Source of the DNA: Chalara sp. BL73
Taxonomy: Eukaryota; Ascomycota; Leotiomycetes; Helotiales
Length of the DNA: 64,000 bases
Reading direction: 5' to 3'
NCBI GenBank assembly: GCA_918026815.1
Contig: CAKJVC010000092.1
Coordinates: 1 to 64,000, forward strand
Position numbers and translations under genes: made by a program. Below the pieces are notes generated by a model, which saw nothing but the letters and a program-made list of their open reading frames with translations, had not been told where the DNA came from and did no database searches. This document shows, piece after piece, positions 10,925 through 38,834 of the stretch (its first letter is position 1; the number at the start of each line of letters is the position of its first letter).

Positions 10925-13900
10925 ATGGCGTCAAGCAAAGCTCTTAACATTGGATTTGCCGGTTTGGGTGCGATGGGATTGGGAATGGCATCACACCTGG
11001 TAAAGGAGGGACATAATGTTACTGGCTTCGACGTGTACGAACCATCCCTCGAGAAATTCAAAGCAGCGGGAGGACAAACGACGACATCGCCAAAAGACGC
11101 TGGAATAGCAAAAGAATATTTTATCTGTATGGTGGCCAACTCTCAACAGGCTGAGACAGTGTTATTCGACCGCGAAAATGGCGCAGTTCAAGGTAAACAC
11201 CAGTTCATCATATTAGACGCCAGTCCTAATTACAAAATCAGCACTACCATCTAATTCAACCATTATCTTATGCTCAACAGTTCCTGCAGCTTTCTTGAAA
11301 TCTGTGCGGCAAAAGTTAGACGATCTCAATCGATCGGATATTTTCCTGGTTGACAGTCCTGTTTCTGGCGGAACCGTTCGAGCCGCACAAGGAACACTCA
11401 CAATACTTGCATCAGGGACCGAACCAGCACTAAGGCAGGGCAATGAAGTTCTGAAACTTCTTTCCGAGAAGCTGTATATCATTCCGGGTGGTGTGGGAGC
11501 TGCCAGTAATGTGAAAATGATTAATCAACTCCTGGCAGGAGTACATATAGCAGCTGCAGCTGAAGCCATGGGCCTTGCAGCAAAAGCCGGACTTAACACC
11601 CGACAGGTCTATGAGATAATATCTGGGGCTGCCGGGAATAGCTGGATGTTCGAGAATAGAGTACCCCATATGCTGGATCATGATTTGACCCCATACTCAG
11701 CATTAGACATCTTTGTCAAAGACATGGTAAGTTTAATTTCACTTCCCATTTGCATTCACTCTAACGTATCGCTAAGGGTATTGTTACATCTTCTGCAAGA
11801 TCCCATGGCTTTCCTCTGCCAATGTCAGCTACAACAGAACAACTTTATCTTTCTGCTTCAGCGCAAGGATTCGGACGACAAGACGACTCTGGTATAGTAC
11901 GGACCTTCAACCCCTCAGCACCCACATTAGTCCACGAGCAAGCAAAAGCATCAGCAATAAAGTCTGACGTCATTACACCATCTGTCACCCCTATAAAAAT
12001 ATCCAAAATTGGTTTCATTGGGCTTGGAGCAATGGGAGTTGGAATGGCCACATCTCTAGTGAATGCAAATTATGATGTTTGTGGCTACGACGTGTATGAG
12101 CCATCCATTCAAAAGTTCCTTTCAATCGGCGGCAAGGCAACCTCCGCCCAATCGCCATCTGAAGTAGCGAATGGTGCAGAGATTCTGGTACTTATGGTCC
12201 AAAATGCTGTACAAGCGGAAGACGTTTTATTTGGAGCTGGAAAAGCGGCCGAATTTCTACCTAATGGATCAATTGTCATACTCAACTCGACAGTCTCTCC
12301 ATCTGCCGTTAGAGGTCTTTCGGAACGGCTGTCATCACTGGGCAAGAATGTGGAACTAATTGATGCTCCGGTCAGTGGGGGCGTATTAAGAGCTGCCCAA
12401 GGTCAACTGACTGTAAGTCGCCTCTCCCCAGGTTGAGAATCCATAACTCACAATTTACAGATCATTTCTTCGGGTAATGAAATTTCTTTATCAAAAGTAC
12501 GCCCAGTTCTTGCTGCCATGAGTGGCCCTGCGAAGAATCTCCATCGTATCGCAGGTGGTGTAGGCGCAGCATCCTCAGTGAAATTAATCAACCAACTTCT
12601 CGCAGGTGTGCATATCGCCGCTGCAGCTGAAGCGATGGCCTTTGGCGCAAAGATTGGTTTAAATACTACCAGCCTTTACGAAATAATCAAGAACGCTGCA
12701 GGTGGGAGCTGGATGTTTGAGAACAGGGTACCAGCGATGCTGAATGCAGATTGGACTCCACACAGTCAACTCGCAATCTTTGTGAAGGACCTGGTATGTA
12801 AGCCATTTACACCCTAGAAAGTCGAGCTAACTTGTCAGGGAATTGTTCTTGATGAATCCAAGCGTTTAGGATATGCCGCTCCTCTCACTGCGGCAGCTCA
12901 TCAACTTTATCTGATGGGAGCCGCACACGGTTGGTCAAAGGATGCTGACAGTGGAGTTGTGCGAGTCTGGGAATTAATGGCAGGAGTTTCAGTTTCTGCA
13001 AGCGCAGTTCCGGCTAAGAAACCGTTTATACCAAGAGAATACCCAAAGCTACCCGTCAATGAAACCCTAGAGTCTCTACCAGTAGCTTCCAATCAGGACA
13101 TCCTTAAAGACATCCGTGTCCAAGTCGACAGCGACACGACACCACTTCTCATTGCTCTAGACGATGATCCCACCGGTACACAAACATGTCATGACATCGC
13201 TGTTCTGACAGTTTGGGACCATGAAACGCTCTGCAAGGAGCTCTCGACAGCCAAGGGTGGCTTCTTCATCCTGACCAATTCCCGTGCATTACCCGGCCCA
13301 GAAGCTAAAGAACTCATATCGACAATCTGCAAAAACCTAGCAATAGCAGCAAAAGAAACGAACAAGAAATTCCAAATTGTTCTTCGTGGCGACTCTACCC
13401 TTCGAGGGCACTTTCCAGAAGAGCCTGAAAGTGTTGAAGAGACACTCGGGAAGTCTGATGCTTGGATCCTTGCACCTTTCTTCTTTCAAGGTGGAAGACA
13501 TACTATCGCGGACATTCATTACGTTGCTGAGAAAGGTGTATTGGTTCCAGCTAGCCAGACACCTTTTGCGAAAGACGCTACGTTTGGATACAAGTCCTCG
13601 AACCTGCGAGACTACGTTTTAGAGAAGGCCGGCGACAAGTTCACAGAGCAGGACATATTTTCTATTAGCATCGATGACATACGACTTGGAGGGCCTGAAA
13701 AGGTAGCCGAGCGCTTGCTTGCAGTTCCAAGAGGAAGCGTAGTCATAGTCAACGCGGCAGTTGAATCTGATATGGCTATCTTTGCAGCAGGCGCCATTGG
13801 GGCCGAGCAAAAGGGCAAGAAATATCTGTATAGAACAGGCGCGGCATTTGTCTCTTCTCGTTTAGGTATTGAGGGAAAGGCACCCATGTCCGCTGAAGAG

Positions 13901-14527
13901 CTCGATATGGATTACCGTTCTGGCTCGAACAGCGCCACAGGCGGTTTCATCATCGCTGGCTCCTACGTTCCTAAGACAACTGCCCAACTAGCATCGCTGA
14001 AGGAGAAGCGGGGCGATAAATTACATGTTATCGAGCTCGATGTCGGCAAGTTGATTAAGTCTGATGCGGAAGCAGCACGGGTCATTTCCAACGCTTACCA
14101 GGAGTCGAGTGAGAAATTAAGGCAAGGACAGGATGTTCTTGTTATGACTTCACGCAACCTGATTACTGGATCAGACGCTATTTCAAGCTTGAAGATTGGA
14201 GGGGTAGTAGCTGCGGCACTGGTCGACGTGTTGCAAAACATCTCCGTCCGGCCAAGATATGTTATTGCAAAGGTAAGCCTTCATCAACTATTTGCCGCGA
14301 CATTGCTGACTCAGGTTTAGGGGGGGATTACTTCTTCAGATGCAGCAACAAAGGGACTGAGTATGAAGCGAGCCATGATCCTGGGTCAAGCTGCGCCGGG
14401 AGTGCCGATCTGGAGATGCGACGAAGAGAGCTCTCGCCATACCGGCGTTCCCTATATCGTGTTTCCTGGAAACGTGGGTGGTGATGATACCCTCGCTGAG
14501 GTGGTTGAGCGATGGGCCATCCAATAG
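10925..14527 (+). CDS. Fused double hydroxy-acid dehydrogenase plus four-carbon acid-sugar kinase
   Basis: Six exons (10925-11192, 11242-11726, 11777-12412, 12461-12793, 12839-14272, 14321-14527) join in phase to about 1120 residues. Residues 1-310 and about 325-610 are tandem NAD-binding beta-hydroxyacid dehydrogenase modules of the 3-hydroxyisobutyrate/L-threonate dehydrogenase family. Each has a GLGAMGxGMA nucleotide motif, an APVSGG- or SPVSGG-type motif and the catalytic-Lys block GGVGAAS-VK-IN. From about 675 a DUF1537/OtnK kinase begins (LIALDDDPTGTQT) and runs through VLRGDSTLRGHFP, APFFFQGGRHT and VIAKGGITSSD to the ATP-binding end (FPGNVGGDDT). In bacteria these families oxidise L-threonate or D-erythronate and phosphorylate the 2-keto product. 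Here one cytosolic polypeptide would do both steps. The aldolase or decarboxylase expected next is absent from the chain and from the window. Confidence 0.9.
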
Positions 14528-27998: not shown

Positions 27999-29796
27999 TG
28001 TTCAGCCAATTTTATCGCATGTGCATTATTGCTATGGCGAATGCTATAGTGAAGTGGATTTGAAGTGTTGTTGCCAGACAAGCAAGGCTGTGAGATCAGC
28101 CTTGTGGGCCAAATGAAGTAATCAAAGTTAAAATAAAACTAGGCACTAGCTTGTTCCCACAATATGGCTGGGTGTCTTCCTCTATTGTTTACCAGGGAAT
28201 CCCATCGAGTATGTAACTCTAGTCTTGCCAACGGTGGGAGTTTGGAAACTACTGCTTGCCCATCTGGCTATAAAGGTTGGAAGGCTTTCAGTGTTACAGG
28301 CTTGTGATCAAATCACTCAAACAGAGAAACTTACTTATTTTCCGACATCAAGTGAGCTATAGCTGTGGGGGTTTACTACTGTACAATGTCAATTTTCAAT
28401 AATATTCAGCATGTGCGGCTTCCGTGTTTAGACTCTTCTTTCAAGCTTGGCTATCATCTTTGGGAACTGCAAGATTAATTCTTGCAACATGATCGGCGTC
28501 TAATCTATAGGAGATCAATGGCATGCTAATTATCTGTATCGGGGCGATATATGGTATGCTGCAACCGACCTAGAATAAGCTCAAGATCTGATAGAAAGTG
28601 ATACAATGCCAATTCTTCAAGCAATACCTCAATGGCTTTCCATTAGAAGCCTTTGCGCTAAATTCGGCGCAGTTAATGGTTCAATGGCAATAACTCTTAC
28701 ATCCTCTTCACGGACTCAGCCGCTATCCTGTGCACTGTACGAGAATGGCTTGAAATCCTTGTGAGGACGAAAACGCCACGGCCATGTGTACTTGCTGTGC
28801 TGGAGAGACTTTACGAAGCATGATTTTGGGCCTCTTGGGTTGAGCTGGAGGTAAGTTTCAAGACTTAGAGGTTGCTCAGCTGTATCTTCCTTTCGGTCGA
28901 GAGTCAAGATGGTCGGATGAGGATGGGGGCGATGCCAATGGATGCCACGAACGATTTGATGTTTCAAAGTTTGAACGTATAGTCATGATGATTGGCGGAG
29001 GATCTGCCCCGCAATTGATCTCATGAAGTGTTCAGCTTCATCTCGAAGACGCTAATGAGGGACAGTCCTGGAGTTGACTATCTAGTTGGCTCCAGCTTTG
29101 GCCAGTATCAATTGCGATGCCGCAACCCCAGAGAGGTAGGTCATCATCGTGAACAATGAACATCAAGCACGAAGCGAAACTCTGTTGAACGGCTAAACAT
29201 GGTTAAATGCAAACAACACTTGACCCAAGATATGTTCGTGTATGGCAAAAAAGTTACCAAGTTTCGAGTGTGGGATGAAGCTTATTTGAATGTGGAATAA
29301 TAAATTGGATACTGAAACCCTACGACACGCGCTTCGGCTCGTAGAGCTGCAAGTGGAGTCGGAATGGTTGTTCAGACGGCGGCGTCATTACTTGGGTAGA
29401 GATGAATTATAGCGGTATCATTGGGGAGGGGTTGTGTTGTAACAGTCCACGGAGGCGGCCAATTTCTTCAGAGGATTCTACGATCATCTGGCCACGGCAC
29501 GTTTGAGGTCTGTGTTGAATTAAACGGGTAATAATGTCGATCTTATCATTGCGAAGGAAAAAAAAAATAGTACTGTAAGTATTGGACTGCACAGTAACTG
29601 TACTGTGAGTAGTGGCAAGATTTCGGAGATTTGTTTGATAGGCAAAGGGGTCGCCTTCCTGATCACAATCCCACCTTAGAGTTGGTGGTGGTGAGTGAGT
29701 GAACTGGATAGGACTTCGTATGTTTCTGTGTTTGCAAAAGGGAATTTGCTCAGGATGGAAGGATTCCCAATAGAGATCGCTATGGAAGTAAGTGTT

Positions 29797-29817
29797 TCTC
29801 TCTCTCTCTCTCTCTCT
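29797..29817. repeat. (CT)n microsatellite
   Basis: About ten uninterrupted CT units. Confidence 0.95.
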
Positions 29818-30807
29818 TGAAACGCTCTCAGGTGAGGAGACTCGAGGCTCGAGCCTGGGGAAGGGGGTGGCAAGTTCGGTAAGCCCGCCGAGTGCCACGT
29901 TTTTAGGGATACACTGCACACAACCCTCCACTCCACTGCGCTGCACTCCACTACACTACACTCCACCACTGTACAAGAAACTATGCTGTCCTATGCTTCA
30001 GGACTGTCTTTGATGATTCTCGACTCCCCTGCTTCGAACGATAATCCCCAATCAATGCTTCTATAGTCCAGCACGGTTCAGTCCAGAATAATGGTGGTTG
30101 GCTCATAATTCCTGCTTCTTTCTCCCCTGTCACCGCCAATTAATTACCTGAGATGTTGTCTTCCCCTCTACACACCACCAGTTACACAACTTTTCCGTGC
30201 TGACCACCGTCGTTTTTTCTATTCAGGAAAGTAACCATACTCGGCAATTGACCCTGCTCCGCAGATTTCTTTCTTTAAGTACCTAGGTGTCAAGTATTGT
30301 TTTGCTCGCACGCTCAATTCTGTTTGATCCATGACAACGATGATGATAATGATGGGATTCACCTGAATCGTGAATGCATATTGCCCTAGCCGCCTTAGCC
30401 CGCAAGATCCATAGGTTGTGGGTTTGGTTTTGTTTCTATTTTATAACTAACTAGCCTTCAACTTTCTGGATGTCAAAGGACGGGGGTAAACCCACCGCTT
30501 GTGGCTGAAAACAGGCTTCAGGCCGTCTCGAGATTACACTACCCATTGTTGTACACCGCTTCCTCGCCGATGGAACCGTCGTCTGTACTGTACCCGCGAT
30601 GAGCCTATGAGGCACACAGCTCAATAATTCTTGTTGCTTTTTATTTTTGAACTGTTTTATGATGAAGCTTGTATCTTGCCGATGATGACTTGTCGTTTAT
30701 GCCGTTCTTGTCGAGCAATATGGCAGGCTTCCTTACCCGTTGATATGATATTTTTCCAAACCGCTTTTTCCGGACGAGATGATCGTACCATCAAAGTGGT
30801 TGTAGTT

Positions 30808-30840
30808 CTTTTCTTCTTCGTCTTCTTCTTCTTCTTCTTC
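30808..30840. repeat. (CTT)n microsatellite
   Basis: About eleven CTT-type units with one interruption (TCG). Confidence 0.9.
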
Positions 30841-31828
30841 TGCCTCTTGGTGAACCCCAGGTGGTGGTCCCATCGCATTTGCAACCAGGGCCAGGGCATG
30901 CCACGACACTAATGCCAGCCAAGAGGTGTCGCCAGCAGGTCAGGCCAGGAACCGAAGTCAGCAAAAAGGCTTTTAGGTGACCATGACCACACCATCTCCC
31001 CCTCAAGCCTGCTGGCATGAAAGTTGACAGGCGAATGATTCGCTCTAAATAATAGTCTCCGAAGCTGGCCAAAAGCTGGTGCTTATCGATAGTCAGGGGT
31101 AGCAAATCAAATTCCATCTCGTTGTCAACAAAATCCTGGGATGTACCCGTCGCATGCAGCACTCGACCGTCAGCCTGCAAGGGGAGGAAGAGGCTACTGT
31201 ACGGTATACAGTAGCGTAGTTACTACCATACGATACAATACAACACAATTCAATACTTACTACTACTAGTACAGCACAGGAGGTTCTAGCGCCGGTCAGC
31301 GAACGAGGGGTTATTCCCGCTCCACCAAACGCGCCACCCCTCCTCTCCAAGAGCTGCTCAACCTGCTCCGAGCCTGTGCGTTTCTGCTCCTGCTGCCAAC
31401 TGCCCACAACCCACAGACTCCCTCTACTAGTTAAACCATGCAGAAGGTGATACCGATGGTTAATCATATCCATCCAGTATACGTATGCCATCCTTGCTCT
31501 TACGGGTGACATGGCCGGAGTTGCACGGGATGAGGCAAGTGCCGTTGATCATCTTATATCAGAGCTTTGGCCCTGCACATCTACACACCTTTTTTGTCTG
31601 CTCGCCGTCTTCGTTGTCATCCTAAGTGTACTGACTGAGCTGGTCTGACGGTCACTCGGTCTAGCAACCCGTGTTGCTGTTCTTCTTTGTGTTACCTGTC
31701 TTCCATCGTTGTGTTGCCTTTGCATCGACGCCTTGCTCTCTTTTGGTGCAGTCGACACAGCTTCAGATATGTGTTGAGCAGTTCACCTTTTGCCGATCCT
31801 GATCCTCATCTGAATTCGTCCTCTGGAG

Positions 31829-32881
31829 ATGAGGGGTGTCCAATATGCTTGGATGATATGGGTTTTGTGTTTTCCGGCTTCTATTCTTGCTGCAACACCG
31901 CTACCTCTGGTTCTGGTTAAGCACAAAGGCACTTTGGGATTGAGGGCAGCTCAAAGATTGGACCTGCCAGCAATTCAGAGCAGATCAACTTCGTCGACTG
32001 CTGCACCCTCGCAAGCTTCTTCCAAAAGCTCGAACCTTGCTTCGCCCACGTCAACGAGCCATAGCGAGTTGGGAATCGACTCGGACGCAAGTGCTATGTC
32101 GGACGCTAATTCTAGCAGTATGTCTACACGACAAAGAAACCTAATCATAATCCTCACAACTGTGCTTGGATCCGTGGGAATTATGTCGCTGGTAGTGGCT
32201 GTCTGCCTTGTATGTCGATACAAACGAGGCAAGACACCTTTCCGCAATCGAGGCGTCACTCCTATAGATGATGAAGAGATTGAGACATGGAGGGAGCCAA
32301 AACAGAGCCCGACCATGGGGGCATCTTCTCCGCACACCCCTCGTGGCATGAGTATCGATTCCATTGCCCTTAAACATTCCCCGCAATTGGCCTGGGCACA
32401 TTCACCAAACTCGATGCAATATCCCCCGCCAGCACTGGTGGCACAAACTCCTGATTTTATGGCAAGAGCACCAAATTCAAGGGTCGGCCTGACAGACGAA
32501 GCTATCCCCGGAGCCGCACCTTTCATAACGCCACCAAAACGTCAAAGTTCACGCCTTTCCAAAGCTCCTCCAGGGCATTCGCGAACGAAGAGTAGGAGGA
32601 GCAGTATCAGCGCAAAAAGCGTGCGGAGTTTCACTGGCGGGACTATAGTAGGGCCAAGAATAACTACCAGGATACCAATGTGGTATGATCCAGACGATAG
32701 CTCTGTTGGCATGGACCGGAGAGACACCGAGCACAGCTCACCTGGAACATCAATATTTGATGGGCTATCAGTTGGGGGAGGCTTATCGCCAAGACCAAAA
32801 TCCAAAACTCAGTCGCGGCCATGGGATCCGGATTATGCATGGGACAAGGAAATAGGCGGTATTGGACGAGCTATTGCATAG
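31829..32881 (+). CDS. Single-pass membrane protein with signal peptide, Ser/Pro-rich
   Basis: A single exon of 350 residues. Residues 1-22 look like a signal peptide (MIWVLCFPASILAA). A Ser/Thr/Ala-rich, probably O-glycosylated ectodomain follows to about 100. One membrane helix at about 104-129 (NLIIILTTVLGSVGIMSLVV) is followed by the stop-transfer CRYKRGK. The cytosolic tail is rich in Ser, Pro and Arg, with repeated SxxR and RxxS patterns (KSRRSSISAKSVRSF) that look like phosphorylation targets, and ends YAWDKEIGGIGRAIA. The layout resembles fungal wall-stress (WSC/mid2-like) or other mucin-like surface proteins, but there is no WSC cysteine domain. Family not recognised. Confidence 0.78.
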   Translation: MRGVQYAWMIWVLCFPASILAATPLPLVLVKHKGTLGLRAAQRLDLPAIQSRSTSSTAAPSQASSKSSNLASPTSTSHSELGIDSDASAMSDANSSSMSTRQRNLIIILTTVLGSVGIMSLVVAVCLVCRYKRGKTPFRNRGVTPIDDEEIETWREPKQSPTMGASSPHTPRGMSIDSIALKHSPQLAWAHSPNSMQYPPPALVAQTPDFMARAPNSRVGLTDEAIPGAAPFITPPKRQSSRLSKAPPGHSRTKSRRSSISAKSVRSFTGGTIVGPRITTRIPMWYDPDDSSVGMDRRDTEHSSPGTSIFDGLSVGGGLSPRPKSKTQSRPWDPDYAWDKEIGGIGRAIA

Positions 32882-33485
32882 CATTAGGTGAAGGTTTTAC
32901 TTGTGGTGTACAACAACACTTTAGAGCCGGATCGAGCACAAGTTGAGCATTATCACATGAACTCAATCGACATTGATTTTTCTTCTGTTTGTGGCGCTTC
33001 GACGCATAGGGAAATGGCGTTCAATGACTGAGATTCTTGTCCACCATACCGGACATGTATATACCCACTCAGTATGTTTTATTACCGCCAACAAGGCGCA
33101 CGTGTAGTTGTACGAATTGGACAGTGGATCTGAAATCCATTCGTCATCTGCTTTGGTAGCTAGAAATATACACAAGATTTCCCATACTATACTTCAACCT
33201 GTCTACCTCGGATCCTTAGTCGTGATTCTCGCCGCGGGTCCCCTCAAAGTGAAAATTGTTCACTCGAGTCCTCTAACATCACCTCCCTTTCTTAACTCCA
33301 ATGAGCTCTTCATGTTCTGTCTCCTTTCTATGCTATGCTGTCTTTCCAAGCTTGTCGTACAGAAGACCATTATTGGAGTAGACGAGTCGAGTTAGCAGCT
33401 GACACCACTATCACCCTAACATCTTCCATGATACAAAAAACCAGAGCCTCCAGCTTCTTCAAAATCAGAATTGATTCCTCATAGA
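32882..33485. other. Convergent 3' spacer
   Basis: Spacer between two convergent genes. No gene seen. Confidence 0.6.
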
Positions 33486-34518
33486 TTAAAAGTCCTCTCC
33501 AGGATTTGCCCCATTCAAATGATTGGGATTCACCATATCCGGCAAAAAGTACTTGTAATAATCATCCGGCGCCTTCAACTCCTTGACCCTCCCTTCCTTT
33601 TTCTGCATCTTCTCCACGTACTTATCCAAATCGATCGTATTTTTCAGCCGCCACTCAGTCAGGGCATCGAAATCAATGCACTCTCTATTTACGCTCATAT
33701 CTGGAAATGGGTAAGCCTGTTGCTCTATCCAGTGCATAGTTATTAAATTAACATTGCCCGAACACTGGATAGTCTGCATAAGCATGTCCGCGCAGTGATT
33801 TATGTGTATTTCGTACATTTCGCCTTTTTGGGTATGGTGGTGGGAAGAAGCAGTGCTGGTGTTATAGTAAGTGCTGTATGCAATGCGGCGGAACATGTTT
33901 AGGCAGTGGAGTTGGTGATAGACGTCCAGGATCGTGGCATAAGCATCGTCGCCGAGCCCCCAGTCTTCATCCTCGAGCTTCGCGACGGTGGAGGGATCTT
34001 TACCCATAGCTCGGATCTGGTCGGCTGTCACTGGAAAATAACGTGTGAGCTCCCATTCGTCCCAGACCTTGTCGGCTTCTGGGTTGGGCATTTGGCGCGC
34101 GATAGAGGGATCTTTGGGAACGAAGAGTGTGCCATTTAGTGTTTTTGGTGCCATTTTCAGGTCAATTAGGTCGTGAATGGGACCTAAAGTGCCAAATTAA
34201 ATCCATAGTCTTAAAATGTTTGGTGATTCTAAGGTGAAACTCGAACCTACTGTACGTGGATGTTCGTCGTAGGGCAGCATTAAGCTGCCAATGAGTATTA
34301 TAGTACCATACTCCAAAACAACTAAGTGATACTGCACAGAGCAAGATATTGAGACCGGTGATCAGATACAGCTTGATTTCTCGAGATTTCGAAATTGTGT
34401 CCTGAGGATGGATCTTCTCACCCAGGAAACCTGCGCGCTCTTGGTCTTCAAACTCTGTTGACGCCTTAGACAGAGCTGGCGAGATGGGGGTATACTTGGC
34501 CTTGAGGAATAATGCCAT
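33486..34518 (-). CDS. UstYa-family (DUF3328) oxidase of RiPP biosynthesis
   Basis: Two exons (34518-34251 and 34183-33486) join in phase across a 67-bp intron to 321 residues. A cytosolic N-terminus is followed by one membrane helix at about 50-72 (LYLITGLNILLCAVSLSCFG). The lumenal domain contains NGTLFVPKDPSI and both UstYa signatures, HxxHC at about 179-183 (YHQLHCLNMFRR) and at about 216-220 (HINHCADMLMQ), with a Cys ten residues further on (IQCSG). UstYa-type proteins cyclise or oxidise dikaritin peptide cores in the secretory pathway; the His/Cys motifs are thought to hold the metal. All key residues are present, so it looks functional. It is divergent from the repeat precursor gene at 35697 (1.18 kb between starts), a probable enzyme-substrate pair. 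The start was chosen as the first ATG giving the normal short N-terminus. Confidence 0.92.
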
Positions 34519-35696
34519 GTTGATCTTATGGTGTGATGGCAGCGAACCCAAAAGCGACAGAATGATTGATCAGGTCAGAGCTGTGAGACTGGCATCAGAG
34601 TTAGGAAATTGAAACAACGGAATTCGGACGTCTCTCTGAGGTCAAGAGGGTTTGAAAGTTCCGGAAGTTTCAACGCCTTACAGATTTTGGCATTCACAAG
34701 AGTTCTAATCGTTCTGAGTATCCTGACCGCTATTACGGCATAGAGAATGTGCCATGGTTACGCAGGGCCAAGAGGATTAGGTTTGCATCCTAGGTGCAAG
34801 CAGATATGTAGGTTGTATATATTCTACGCCTTGGCTTGATTACCAAAGGCCCTGAGACCTTTGCCTAGACATTTAGACGCAATATCAGTAAAGGAAATTC
34901 CTTTTCAAGAAGGCCAAGATCATGTACAGAGGCGTGATCACTGTCGCAAATGGCGCAGCCGCGACCCTCAACGTCTGCATGACATTCTGGATAAAAGAAT
35001 GTTCGTACTGAGAACCACTCAAGACATGGAAGGATATGAAGTTGATCGCTGTCAGAGCCGGCTTAGGAAGTTGCTTAGAGTACTAAAGCTTTTGCGCCAC
35101 ACCCCTACATCTTTAAAGAGTCTGGTTATCGCCGAGCTAGCCAATAAGAGCCTGAATATGCTCGCCAAGCGAGGGGCAATAAGCGAGCCCCTTACCTCCC
35201 CACTTCGCTCAGGCACGACAGGATATACACCCAATATCTATATATCACGTTCGTGTTGACTGAGGACCTTGGTAATCCACAAGCGCTGGATCCGGTACAG
35301 GCGATCTACGGACGACCAACGGACATATTTAGCGCACATGGTGACTACTTCCAAGACATGCATGAGTGTTCTGTGCAGTAGCTTTCCCAGCATCTAGCTC
35401 AATGAACCACTCGGAAACATGAAGATGGGAAGATACCTTCACCGAGCGGTCAGAGAATCCGCGCTCATATTTGGTGATTGTCTTACAAGCGGAGTACTAC
35501 CTGCCAAAAATTATCTAGCTGTATTATCGTCCGTAGACATTTTCGCCCGACAGCACCCATCAAAAGCCCTCCCGAGACCGTGCAAGAGCTTGATATATCA
35601 GACTTCGTTCCGCATCAGCAAATACTCATTAAAGCTACCTATAAATCTTGTTTCTCCGCCTCTACAGAAGAATATTCGTCAGATCCTATCGCTACG
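34519..35696. other. Divergent UstYa/precursor spacer with coding-like relics
   Basis: This holds both promoters. It also has two open stretches on the plus strand that read like protein: about 34861-35259 (Arg/Leu-rich) and, in another frame, about 35225-35381, which includes EDLGNPQALDPVQAIYGRPT and ends in a TAG. I recognise neither. A lost gene of the cluster or chance open frames are both possible. Confidence 0.4.
35640..35646 (+). promoter_or_regulatory. TATA-like box of the precursor gene
   Basis: TATAAAT lies 57 bases upstream of the ATG at 35697, close for a fungal TATA element. Confidence 0.4.
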
Positions 35697-36106
35697 ATGC
35701 GTTTCCAAATCCTCGCAACCATCACTTTCGCCACCCTCACTATCAGTGCTCCTGTCAAGGTATATCCAAAAGAGCCCACCAAACGTACGACCCAAAGGCT
35801 AATATCAGACTCCAGCGCAGCGAAGCCGTATATGACAATCCCAAAACCGCCACTCTTCCTTATGGCCTTAATGAGCTCGTGAAGAAAGGCGAGGCTGTCT
35901 ACGATAATCCAAAGACAGCGACGTTGCCATACTCCCCAAATTCCCTGGAGGCAAAGCGAGGAGAAGCTGTATATGATAACCCCAAAACCGCCACCCTTCC
36001 ATATGCCCCTAACTCCCTGGAGGCAAAGCGCGGAGAAGCGGTTTATGACAATCCCAAAACCGCTACCCTTCCGTATGCTGTGAACTCTCTCGAAGCGAAG
36101 CATTAA
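35697..36106 (+). CDS. Dikaritin-type RiPP precursor (UstA-like), four core repeats
   Basis: Two exons (35697-35759 and 35816-36106) join in phase across a 56-bp intron (GTATAT...CTAAT...CCAG) to 117 residues. Exon 1 encodes a 21-residue signal peptide region (MRFQILATITFATLTISA, then PVK). Exon 2 encodes four tandem units of 23-24 residues, each with the invariant stretch EAVYDNPKTATLPY, a spacer (GLNELV, or x-x-NSLEA) and a dibasic end: KK in the first, KR in the second and third, KH at the C-terminus. Splicing places a Lys immediately before an Arg, making a further dibasic site just ahead of unit 1. The architecture of signal peptide, repeated core and Kex2 sites is that of UstA-type precursors, which are secreted, cut by Kex2 and cyclised by UstYa proteins. 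Such products include mycotoxins and host-active peptides; bioactivity here is unknown. The core matches none I know. Confidence 0.9.
35822..36103 (+). repeat. Four in-frame precursor repeats (69/72/72/69 bp)
   Basis: Units are 35822-35890, 35891-35962, 35963-36034 and 36035-36103. The first 14 codons of every unit encode the same residues, yet each of the 14 codon positions differs synonymously in at least one unit. Spacers vary in protein sequence, most in units 1 and 4; units 2 and 3 share the spacer apart from one residue. Confidence 0.95.
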
Positions 36107-38834
36107 TATTTTGTCTTCTACTGCTCTTCGCATCAACAACAGGTCTGGGGTGGTGGGTTGATGGTGGACGCGATTCGATACTTGTCGAGGCCATTCGTAT
36201 ACACCTAGCTTTGGAGGCATGGATACGGTTGATCGGCTAGATATATCCTTAAGCTCTAGCAACTGAAAAGCAGATACAAGCTTTAATTGACAATATCTTG
36301 ACAAGTGATACACTACTTAGTTGCCTCAGGACTTCCTTTATTGCTTAAAGTGCTGCCACACAATCAAGTCCTTTGATAACAAAATTTGGAATGTAGAACG
36401 TCTTCATCTGCGTCTCGGAGAATGGTTGTGGGAGAAATTGAGCTCGGGAAGCCTCTCAATGGCTAAACAGCAACTTCACTATATCTACGTTAGTATTAGA
36501 TCCTGTTTTATGCAGCACCAAAACTTAGCTCGTCAGGGTAGAAGATACTATTTTTTTTTTCAATCATCTTACCTTGGTTTAGATATATAGAAAATGTTTA
36601 CCATCCAATTCTGTTTGGCTTTGTGGGAGATAAATGTCGGGATACATGAAGCCCTCGAGGGCAGTCTGCAGTGGTGGACTTCGCTTGCCGGAAAGAGCGA
36701 GGCCCAACCTAAAATTGAAAGTAAAGTGTAATATTTTCTTATAGCATTGGATTTGGAGAAATCCCCATGAAGTCACCATTAAATTGTGGCTGCTGATGTT
36801 TAGGGTGTTTTCCCTTGAACGAGAGCATAGCTTTGTAATAAGCCATAAATTTAATCTTGTGTAATCCACACAGCTAGCATGCTCACATTAGCCTCCATAC
36901 CACTGTTTACTGACGTTCTTCTGAGACCGGATGCTGTGTTGCTCGGGGCTTTATCTGAAGTTAGCTCAGCTGAATAGCAAAGCCCTTGCCAAACTTTGCT
37001 TGCCCTGTGTCTCGATCGTCCCTTCTTTAAAAATTAGGTTATCTCTCCTCTGTTGTATAGAGTAACAGTTCTGCTAATCAACAAAAGCTTCTATGGACCG
37101 GCTAGATCTCAAACTAGTAGCTAAGCTCCTTCGAACCTCTTCTCGGACTACTAATATTCAAGGAAACAGGATTGTGCTTCACAATGGCTTCTAGGACCAT
37201 TCTCTTGAGCTGCAAGGCTATCTAGAGCCATGTGATGCCCTCCAATGCCAGATAACGTTCGAAATAGAAAACACTTATTACCTGGCTTGGAGGTTGTCAT
37301 ATAGGATACAGAGTTCTGCCTCTCTATCTGCCATGTGTTGTGCATAGTGTGAAGCTATTCAATTTGGTATATTTGTTCCACTAGACGACGATAAGAGGGG
37401 TATTTGTGAAGATGTCTGATCCAGCCCCAATCGCTGAGATATGAGCAATCTCACAGTTGATACTTAATCAATCATGTATCTCTGCCACTAAACTGGAATG
37501 TGCAGGTTTCTATTCCCAGAAGCAAGAGACGATAGGTTGCTTGTCGAGGCTTATGAGGAGACTCCTTTTTATTTCAAAGCTGTTCACCGCAGTATAACCA
37601 TCCAAAGGATCCTTGGTTTGGTTGGATCGTCAAATCCTGCATGGGTTTGACGACAGTTGATGTCTTAGAGTGTCTTCGCATGGCATTACGGCATAGGTCG
37701 TCATCAGTGGTATGCTTTGGCAATCCTCTGATGCTGGTTTGCTATACCACCAACATGTCTTTTGGATTCACCATTACGGTTCAAATATTAGATGTGTTTG
37801 TGATCCTTAGTGCATAAATGTTGACGACATGCTTCAACTCAGACTCAGCACCTCTGTTAATATCTAAGAGAGACTGGCCATCTTTTTCTCAATCACCACT
37901 TTTTCCTTTCTCACTATCGTCATCGCAGTCAGGATCTTCGCCGTAACCTAGCAGCCTGTAGTGTAGCATCTCCGAACCCGCCAGTCTAATCTCGCCGAGG
38001 AACTAATTCGAAATTTCTTCCCATGCTCCCGAATGCCTCTGCATCCCATTTGGCTTCAAAGACCTGCTTGAAACCACATTCTTCGCCACTTGAATCTATT
38101 CTCCGTAGTGAAGTTCTTTGTAAACCCAGATCCATAGACTAACTTACCACTTTCTGGCATCCAGATATGTAACAGGCGGCCAGGGAGACAGGCCCTAGGA
38201 AATCTAAGATTTCACGTTGGATCTTAGCGGGAGAAGTGAGGAGGAGTAAGAACGCCATCAGCACCGTAGCGAGGTCCAAGGACACTGTATGCAAAGTCAG
38301 CAAGTTCTTAGGATAGTGAGGTAAAAGAGATTTACAAATTGCCATTATTTGGGTACTACAAAAGAGGTACGTGAGCCAGTGCCTTAACGGAGAGGACACC
38401 TCTCAGAGGGTATGCTCTGAACTATAGGTATCCAGCCGAAGGACTCACTTCTTGGTCGAACGAGTAGAGCTGTTTGTTTATAGGTGAGTCTCAGCTGCTT
38501 TAAGCAAGAGCTATCCAAGAACGGTGACCAGCGGTCGAGCCACAGTGGGCAATTCTACAGCCAACAAACACCACAGGCGAGAGAGATGAGAAGCTATCTA
38601 GTGAACAAAGCTAGTGGTATGAACACGCAAGAATAAACCATCCAGCCAACTACATATGATAAATATTATAGTACGGTCTTCAAATAAGTATTATGAAGAG
38701 TTAGTCCTACTTCGACAGACATTCCTCATCTAAAATATATGGCCTAACAGGGGGTATGTATCTCGGGAAAACTTTTCGTGTATATTCCCTCTCAATAGCC
38801 TACCCCAGGGCACTTGAGATGGATTGGTAAGTCA
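36107..38834. other. AT-rich gene-poor spacer
   Basis: No intact gene seen. Several stretches read like decayed protein, for example about 37505-37650 on the plus strand (EARDDRLLVEAYEETPFYF), but stops interrupt them quickly. Probably old repeat DNA. Confidence 0.45.

Follow-up and report, generated by a model that had tools for sequence, protein, structure and literature searches.

Two divergent genes within the window, by which we mean the whole 64-kb stretch of DNA that was analyzed (the first 64 kb of contig C86, itself 1.3 Mb, in an assembly of 58.7 Mb and 199 contigs), very probably make up a minimal pathway, of these two genes alone, by which a ribosomal peptide is modified and secreted. 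One of them, on the plus strand at 35697..36106, is a RiPP precursor gene of two exons and 117 aa, assigned on the basis of its translation and its database relatives. The other, on the minus strand at 33486..34518, encodes a UstYa protein (PF11807/DUF3328) of 321 aa with one TM-like segment and the motifs HQLHC and HINHC. Between their start codons lies a region of 1.2 kb (34519..35696), upstream of both genes, which includes an ORF at 34840-35256 for which no Pfam match was found. An earlier note on this DNA had claimed a UstA-like precursor layout, with a leader followed by cores between dibasic sites and a UstYa gene adjacent, and that layout was borne out.

The precursor gene model was reproduced from the sequence, including the exon that the earlier note had read as encoding a signal peptide and the intron that it had placed at 35760-35815. 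Exon 1 (35697..35759, plus strand) encodes a signal-like peptide, MRFQILATITFATLTISAPVK, this designation being based on hydropathy (up to 1.84 over 11 residues) and on a similar start in relatives, in that M[RH][FPS]Q opens nine of the 11 precursor relatives. The predicted intron of 56 nt (35760..35815, plus strand; GT...CTAAT...AG) reads GTATATCC...CTAAT...CTCCAG, with the branch-like CTAAT ending 12 nt upstream of the acceptor. Exon 2 (35816..36106, plus strand) contributes the R that completes the first KR, the four units with their dibasic boundaries, and the stop. When read unspliced (35645-36106), the repeat frame contains no Met, so an intron is needed unless a non-ATG start is used. 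Nine AG acceptors were tried and five of these kept the repeat frame, but the acceptor at 35815 was the sole frame-keeping choice that placed KR at the junction, the first KR of the precursor being formed by the splice itself. The acceptor at 35797 would give a 38-nt intron and a junction without a dibasic site, and those at 35875, 35884 (with KK at the junction) and 35893 keep the frame at the cost of the first core. The 56-nt intron is thus the best, though not the sole, frame-keeping splice predicted. In agreement with an intron at that point, two A. arundinis entries among the relatives differ by 17 residues directly behind the signal peptide.

The spliced precursor consists of a leader and four units, MRFQILATITFATLTISAPVKR|SEAVYDNPKTATLPYGLNELVKK|GEAVYDNPKTATLPYSPNSLEAKR|GEAVYDNPKTATLPYAPNSLEAKR|GEAVYDNPKTATLPYAVNSLEAKH, the units being 23, 24, 24 and 24 aa long when counted after KR and bounded, in order, by KR, KK, KR and KR, with EAKH at the protein end. 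Translation of 35697-36106 therefore confirmed the claim of four 23-24 residue units separated by KK or KR. All four units share an identical stretch of 14 aa, EAVYDNPKTATLPY, encoded on the plus strand at 35822..35863, 35891..35932, 35963..36004 and 36035..36076, which is followed by GLNELV, SPNSLEA, APNSLEA and AVNSLEA, respectively. The codons underlying the identical stretch differ among the four copies in 14 of 14 columns and every difference is synonymous; at the nucleotide level there are 15 variable columns (14 third-position and one first-position), again all synonymous. When 15 nucleotide changes were placed at random on the core, an all-synonymous outcome was obtained in 0 of 200,000 simulations, and when the codons of exon 2 were shuffled, any 6-mer was present three times in 0 of 10,000 shuffles. 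Chance is therefore excluded as the source of the repeat, and the synonymous-only divergence of the cores shows strong purifying selection on the peptide. The fact that 13 of 14 codons differ between units 1 and 2 suggests that the repeats are old and have been held by selection at the level of the peptide.

The precursor occurs in its own genome at this place and in a duplicate on contig C60, and nowhere else. A segment of 7.8 kb carrying both genes (28764-36598) recurs at the end of C60 (C60:1-7847) with one mismatch and 20 gapped positions, 14 of the 17 gap sites falling in single-base runs. The segment's left flank is found again, at 98%, on contig C199. This duplication and its indels would suit an assembly artefact, a non-expressed relic or a random repeat as the explanation of the locus, but the precursor (35697-36106) is identical in both copies, the core divergence is synonymous-only and relatives are present in other fungi, findings that contradict the artefact and random-repeat versions and leave this explanation as a whole extremely improbable. 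The copy on C60 is probably either assembly redundancy or a sign of two nuclear types. The UstYa match in the C60 copy crosses a stop, and the two copies also differ at the C-terminus of UstYa (33486-33500), which reads GEDF-stop here and GEDFNL-stop in close relatives.

The nearby UstYa gene, which the earlier note had placed at 33486, was supported by a PF11807 match of 156.5 bits for the minus-strand ORF 33489-34196, by the presence of both HxxHC motifs and by its distance of 1.2 kb. It comprises exon 1 (34251..34518, minus strand), encoding the N-terminus and TM-like helix, a predicted intron of 67 nt (34184..34250, minus strand; GTAGGTTC...CACTTTAG) and exon 2 (33486..34183, minus strand), which carries the domain with both motifs and the PF11807 match. 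The protein is 97% identical over 100% of its length to one from Bisporella sp. PMI_857 (Helotiales, Leotiomycetes), which served as a stand-in for that of the window in an alignment of 30 UstYa relatives picked from 120 listed of 211, and both HxxHC motifs were invariant in all 30. Judged by this one gene, Bisporella sp. PMI_857 may be closely related to the fungus studied here. A structure model of the Bisporella protein, built using the UstYa relatives alignment, had a mean pLDDT of 77.3 and a pTM of 0.67, with 43 of 323 residues below 50. In the model there is a long confident N-terminal helix (43-77), and the motif residues (179-183 and 216-220) are located on helices 176-191 and 208-231. 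This modelled placement agrees with the description available for CctR, a characterized UstYa member in which the motifs bind two copper ions and mutation of the motifs abolishes activity (PMC12435403). A search of the PDB for sequence relatives of UstYa returned none at E up to 10. In a tree made by a quick method from the window protein and 71 of the 120 listed relatives, many of them without an organism name, the window and Bisporella proteins fell into a group of 18 rows (support 94) with sequences from Pseudomassariella, Apiospora and Thozetella. Two further sequences from Helotiales, one of them a flagged long branch, were separated from this group by a supported branch. Helotiales are thinly sampled in this tree, and we do not claim horizontal transfer from it.

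The pairing of precursor and UstYa is unlikely to be due to chance, given how little of the genome is this close to the start of a UstYa piece (0.55% within 3 kb, 0.39% within 2 kb); the precursor start is 2.06 kb from the low coordinate of its own piece. The genome holds 89 UstYa domain pieces in about 58 places, some of which are assembly duplicates. A search of 32 loci (30 UstYa pieces with 1.5-kb flanks, and 20 kb of C60) for other Kex2-repeat precursors beside UstYa returned only the C60 copy of the present one, and a search of three further 10-kb stretches returned one more.

That further precursor, on the minus strand of contig C184 (~112613-112096), has the same layout, with an ATG reading MKSIIFALVGVALLQ and seven SWYYD copies between KKR/RKR sites, presumably behind an intron. 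UstYa pieces lie at 113884-115043 and tyrosinase pieces at 116315-117021 and 106504-107159, such that the locus looks like a fuller dikaritin cluster; adjoining UstYa and tyrosinase pieces were also seen on contig C82. SWYYD-type letters were absent from searchable open papers.

The precursor and its linkage to UstYa were both found again in other fungi. A protein search gave four precursor relatives and an alignment search, which scored the 8000 candidates sharing most words, gave 11 that included those four: nine from Apiospora (Amphisphaeriales, Sordariomycetes), annotated as hypothetical or uncharacterized, and two from metagenomes. The Apiospora proteins (PG986_001080, PG997_013023 and seven more) are related precursors with the same unit as that of the window, carrying a YGNPETATLPYNVNSL-type core, but they have one or two cores versus the four of the window. 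Whether a UstYa gene is paired with the precursor could be read from the tables for three of the nine. In A. aurea (precursor PG986_001080, UstYa PG986_001081) and A. hydei (precursor PG997_013023, UstYa PG997_013022) the locus tags are consecutive and contigs of equal size are listed, and for A. saccharicola one and the same longest contig, of 7,585,161 bases, is listed with the precursor (PG988) and with a two-member UstYa cluster (named after PG996). The Apiospora UstYa proteins next to precursors are close relatives of the one in the window.

Among the 11 relatives, two cores are present in seven and one core in three (P0128, P0129 and P0130), the single-core precursors being those of A. 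aurea, A. rasikravindrae and A. hydei; the fragment P0131 has two cores, one of which was overlooked by the search pattern. In 10 of the 11 (eight by pattern and two by eye) there is a C-terminal stub, GEAAYGxDSL or similar, that looks like a unit without its middle. A pattern of Y, five residues and ATLPY identified 22 units, 13 of them different and the four of the window included; Tyr1 and ATLPY are fixed by construction in this search, and among the positions left free Leu16 was present in 13 of the 13 different units and Asn14 in 12. When the window protein was aligned with four of its relatives, the first unit proved invariant at A25, Y27, N29, P30, ATLPY, N40 and L42, and by eye every unit of the 11 relatives except the stub has Tyr and ATLPY, with two Tyr per unit. 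The earlier note had named homologues with unconserved repeats and no UstYa gene nearby as grounds against its reading; the motif was found in 11 of 11 relatives, with UstYa adjoining in two Apiospora species, and the reading thus withstood this check. What is conserved is the unit motif YxNPxTATLPYxxNxL and not the number of repeats, which varies from one to four cores. Likewise, the core that had been delimited as YDNPKTATLPY is conserved, but it need not end at the second Tyr, as conservation reaches Leu16.

Close conservation of the peptide across two fungal classes would also suit a linear signal released by Kex2, for example a mating pheromone or a hormone acting in development, with UstYa as a chance neighbor, and the precursor plan is the same as that of alpha-factor as described in PMC6339444. 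In addition, two alpha-pheromone patterns, which may misfit this fungus, revealed no pheromone repeat elsewhere in the genome (strict pattern, no matches with up to two mismatches; loose pattern, one single match versus two in a reversed control), leaving a pheromone gene unaccounted for. Ascomycete alpha-pheromones have a Trp/Cys core, but the present core contains neither residue, and they usually, though not strictly, have no DUF3328 neighbor. The survey reported in PMC7329392 places a DUF3328 neighbor beside 0 of 227 yeast alpha-factor-type and three of 216 pheromone-type precursors, and UstYa linkage was seen again in two Apiospora species, so we consider this alternative very unlikely.

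The genes recognized around the pair are ordinary ones. The Pfam search covered 31 of the 72 ORFs of at least 120 aa in the window, together with nine shorter ones; among these, 10 ORFs flanking the pair (two at 28.7-33.4 kb and eight at 36.3-42 kb) gave no match above the cut-off and one below it. Pfam identified an MFS transporter and a fungal transcription-factor domain at 5.5-9 kb (~25 kb before UstYa), a DUF7907 protein (25.3-26.1 kb), an Rrn11-like protein (27.3-28.0 kb), PUA-domain exons (42.3-43.2 kb), a Kelch protein (47.0-49.0 kb), an aldo/keto reductase exon (51.0-51.5 kb, 15 kb beyond the precursor) and an amino-acid-transporter exon (54.2-54.7 kb, 18 kb beyond it). The distant transporter, reductase and regulator exons were not counted as cluster members because other genes intervene, among them the Kelch and PUA genes on the precursor side. 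The ORF at 11217-14317 has 6-phosphogluconate and 3-hydroxyisobutyrate dehydrogenase domains and is followed by an SBD_N/NBD_C ORF. There were no Rfam families or tRNA genes within the window. In six-frame searches made exon by exon, neither a tyrosinase (39 matches genome-wide) nor an S41 peptidase (one weak match genome-wide, on contig C82) was found on C86.

Ustiloxin and phomopsin, of which the latter has the core YVIPID, are like the present system in their signal-like leader, KR-bounded cores and UstYa proteins. Their precursors have 16 and eight repeats, respectively, the ustiloxin core is YAIG, and PMC6514808 gives a tyrosinase, an S41 peptidase and a regulator as their conserved set. 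Since no tyrosinase or S41 peptidase match is present on C86, the locus does not conform to the dikaritin gene set in this narrow sense, and the dikaritin-type assignment of the earlier note stands in the broad sense, in which UstYa lies beside the precursor with its motifs intact. On sequence grounds, the locus is best described as a minimal asperipin-like pair, i.e., a UstYa-type RiPP in the broad sense. By analogy, the closest working model is asperipin-2a of Aspergillus flavus (aprA/aprY), for which published accounts likewise describe a repetitive precursor, a single UstYa homologue and no tyrosinase (PMC6514808, PMC9233826). The systems differ in their cores, FYYTGY in asperipin-2a versus YxNPxTATLPYxxNxL here, and in that the four-gene apr cluster has a transporter and an isoflavone reductase, the nearest such exons here being 15-18 kb away. 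The epichloecyclins of Epichloe (gigA), which have a Tyr-based ring, are also similar in having four repeats after a signal sequence and KR sites (PMC6514808, PMC9233826).

From the anatomy of the locus and from characterized relatives we infer secretion, Kex2 cutting, copper binding and UstYa action on the present peptide. The precursor would enter the ER via its signal peptide, and Kex2 in the Golgi would then cleave it at KR/KK, giving four peptides of 21 to 24 residues that are nearly identical (GEAVYDNPKTATLPYxxNSLEA once the basic pair has been removed). The neighboring UstYa, a membrane-bound copper enzyme presumed to face the lumen, would oxidize the conserved YxNPxTATLPY segment, most likely by linking the phenol of a Tyr to a second side chain, and unlinked proteases would trim the peptide to its mature form. 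Candidates for the mature core are YxNPxTATLPY, ATLPY and the entire unit as far as Leu16. What type of bond is made, where it is placed and what the product does are guesses on our part; the two conserved Tyr make a Tyr ether cross-link the first guess, though the oxidation may be of another kind. The computed [M+H]+ for YDNPKTATLPY is 1282.631 when linear, 1280.616 with one cross-link and 1278.600 with two, and those for whole units are 2321.130/2319.114 for GEAVYDNPKTATLPYAPNSLEA and 2337.125/2335.109 for GEAVYDNPKTATLPYSPNSLEA.

A variant of the two-gene pathway, in which the peptide has no macrocycle and UstYa hydroxylates, desaturates or otherwise oxidizes a side chain, agrees with the absence of a tyrosinase partner from C86 and with reports that implicate DUF3328 members in hydroxylation, halogenation and other reactions (PMC12435403, PMC12048977). 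We regard it as rather unlikely, as the two Tyr in every unit fit the ether-forming members of the family, and the rings of asperipin-2a are credited in PMC6514808 to the single UstYa homologue of a cluster that has four genes and no tyrosinase. Clusters for nonribosomal peptides and polyketides contain UstYa-family proteins as well (PMC12048977), so adjacency to a precursor is no proof of action on it. Supporting a link between UstYa and a Tyr-containing repeat peptide is that, as reported in PMC7329392, DUF3328 genes peak beside Kex2-repeat genes and repeats containing Tyr make up 65.6% with a DUF3328 neighbor versus 38.2% without.

The letters of the core and of its Apiospora variant were found nowhere in the searchable text of 5.39 million open papers, consistent with the earlier claim of an unrecognized core, and the locus probably makes a small modified peptide without an earlier description. 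It may be one of the two RiPP clusters that the A. arundinis genome paper predicts (PMC10999098). A new core is not in itself rare, considering that 7878 Kex2-processed repeat proteins (KEPs), sorted into 838 types and 2560 stand-alone proteins, are reported from 1345 of 1461 strains and that 22% have a DUF3328 neighbor (PMC7329392). To count as a KEP in that survey, a protein needs three or more tandem repeats, each 8 aa or longer and flanked by KR, KK, RR or RK; with its four units of 23-24 aa, the present precursor comes within this repeat rule. KEPs also have a signal peptide at the N-terminus, for which the hydrophobic start of the precursor, similar in nine of 11 relatives, is a candidate. 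Both published surveys demand at least three repeats (PMC7329392, PMC6339444), a floor that leaves the one- and two-core Apiospora relatives outside them, and a single core peptide is raised as a mere possibility in PMC12048977. The single-core relatives therefore mean that three-repeat mining rules miss part of the UstYa-type peptide class.

We put forward, with considerable doubt, a broader proposal: that the locus belongs to a repeat-optional UstYa family which spans Leotiomycetes and Sordariomycetes and is built on a unit of 16 residues, Y-x-N-P-[KE]-[TM]-A-T-L-P-Y-x-x-N-x-L, near-fixed in a hormone-like rather than toxin-like manner; that one UstYa on its own may link the two conserved Tyr into a ring larger than known dikaritin rings; and that three-repeat survey rules would have hidden the single-core members of this family and perhaps of others. 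In view of the description in 2025 of UstYa (DUF3328) proteins as binuclear copper enzymes (PMC12435403), the question on which such a locus bears is how UstYa chooses its substrate and its reaction. One precursor and one UstYa, present in two fungal classes and in natural versions of one to four cores, offer a clean system in which to test it.
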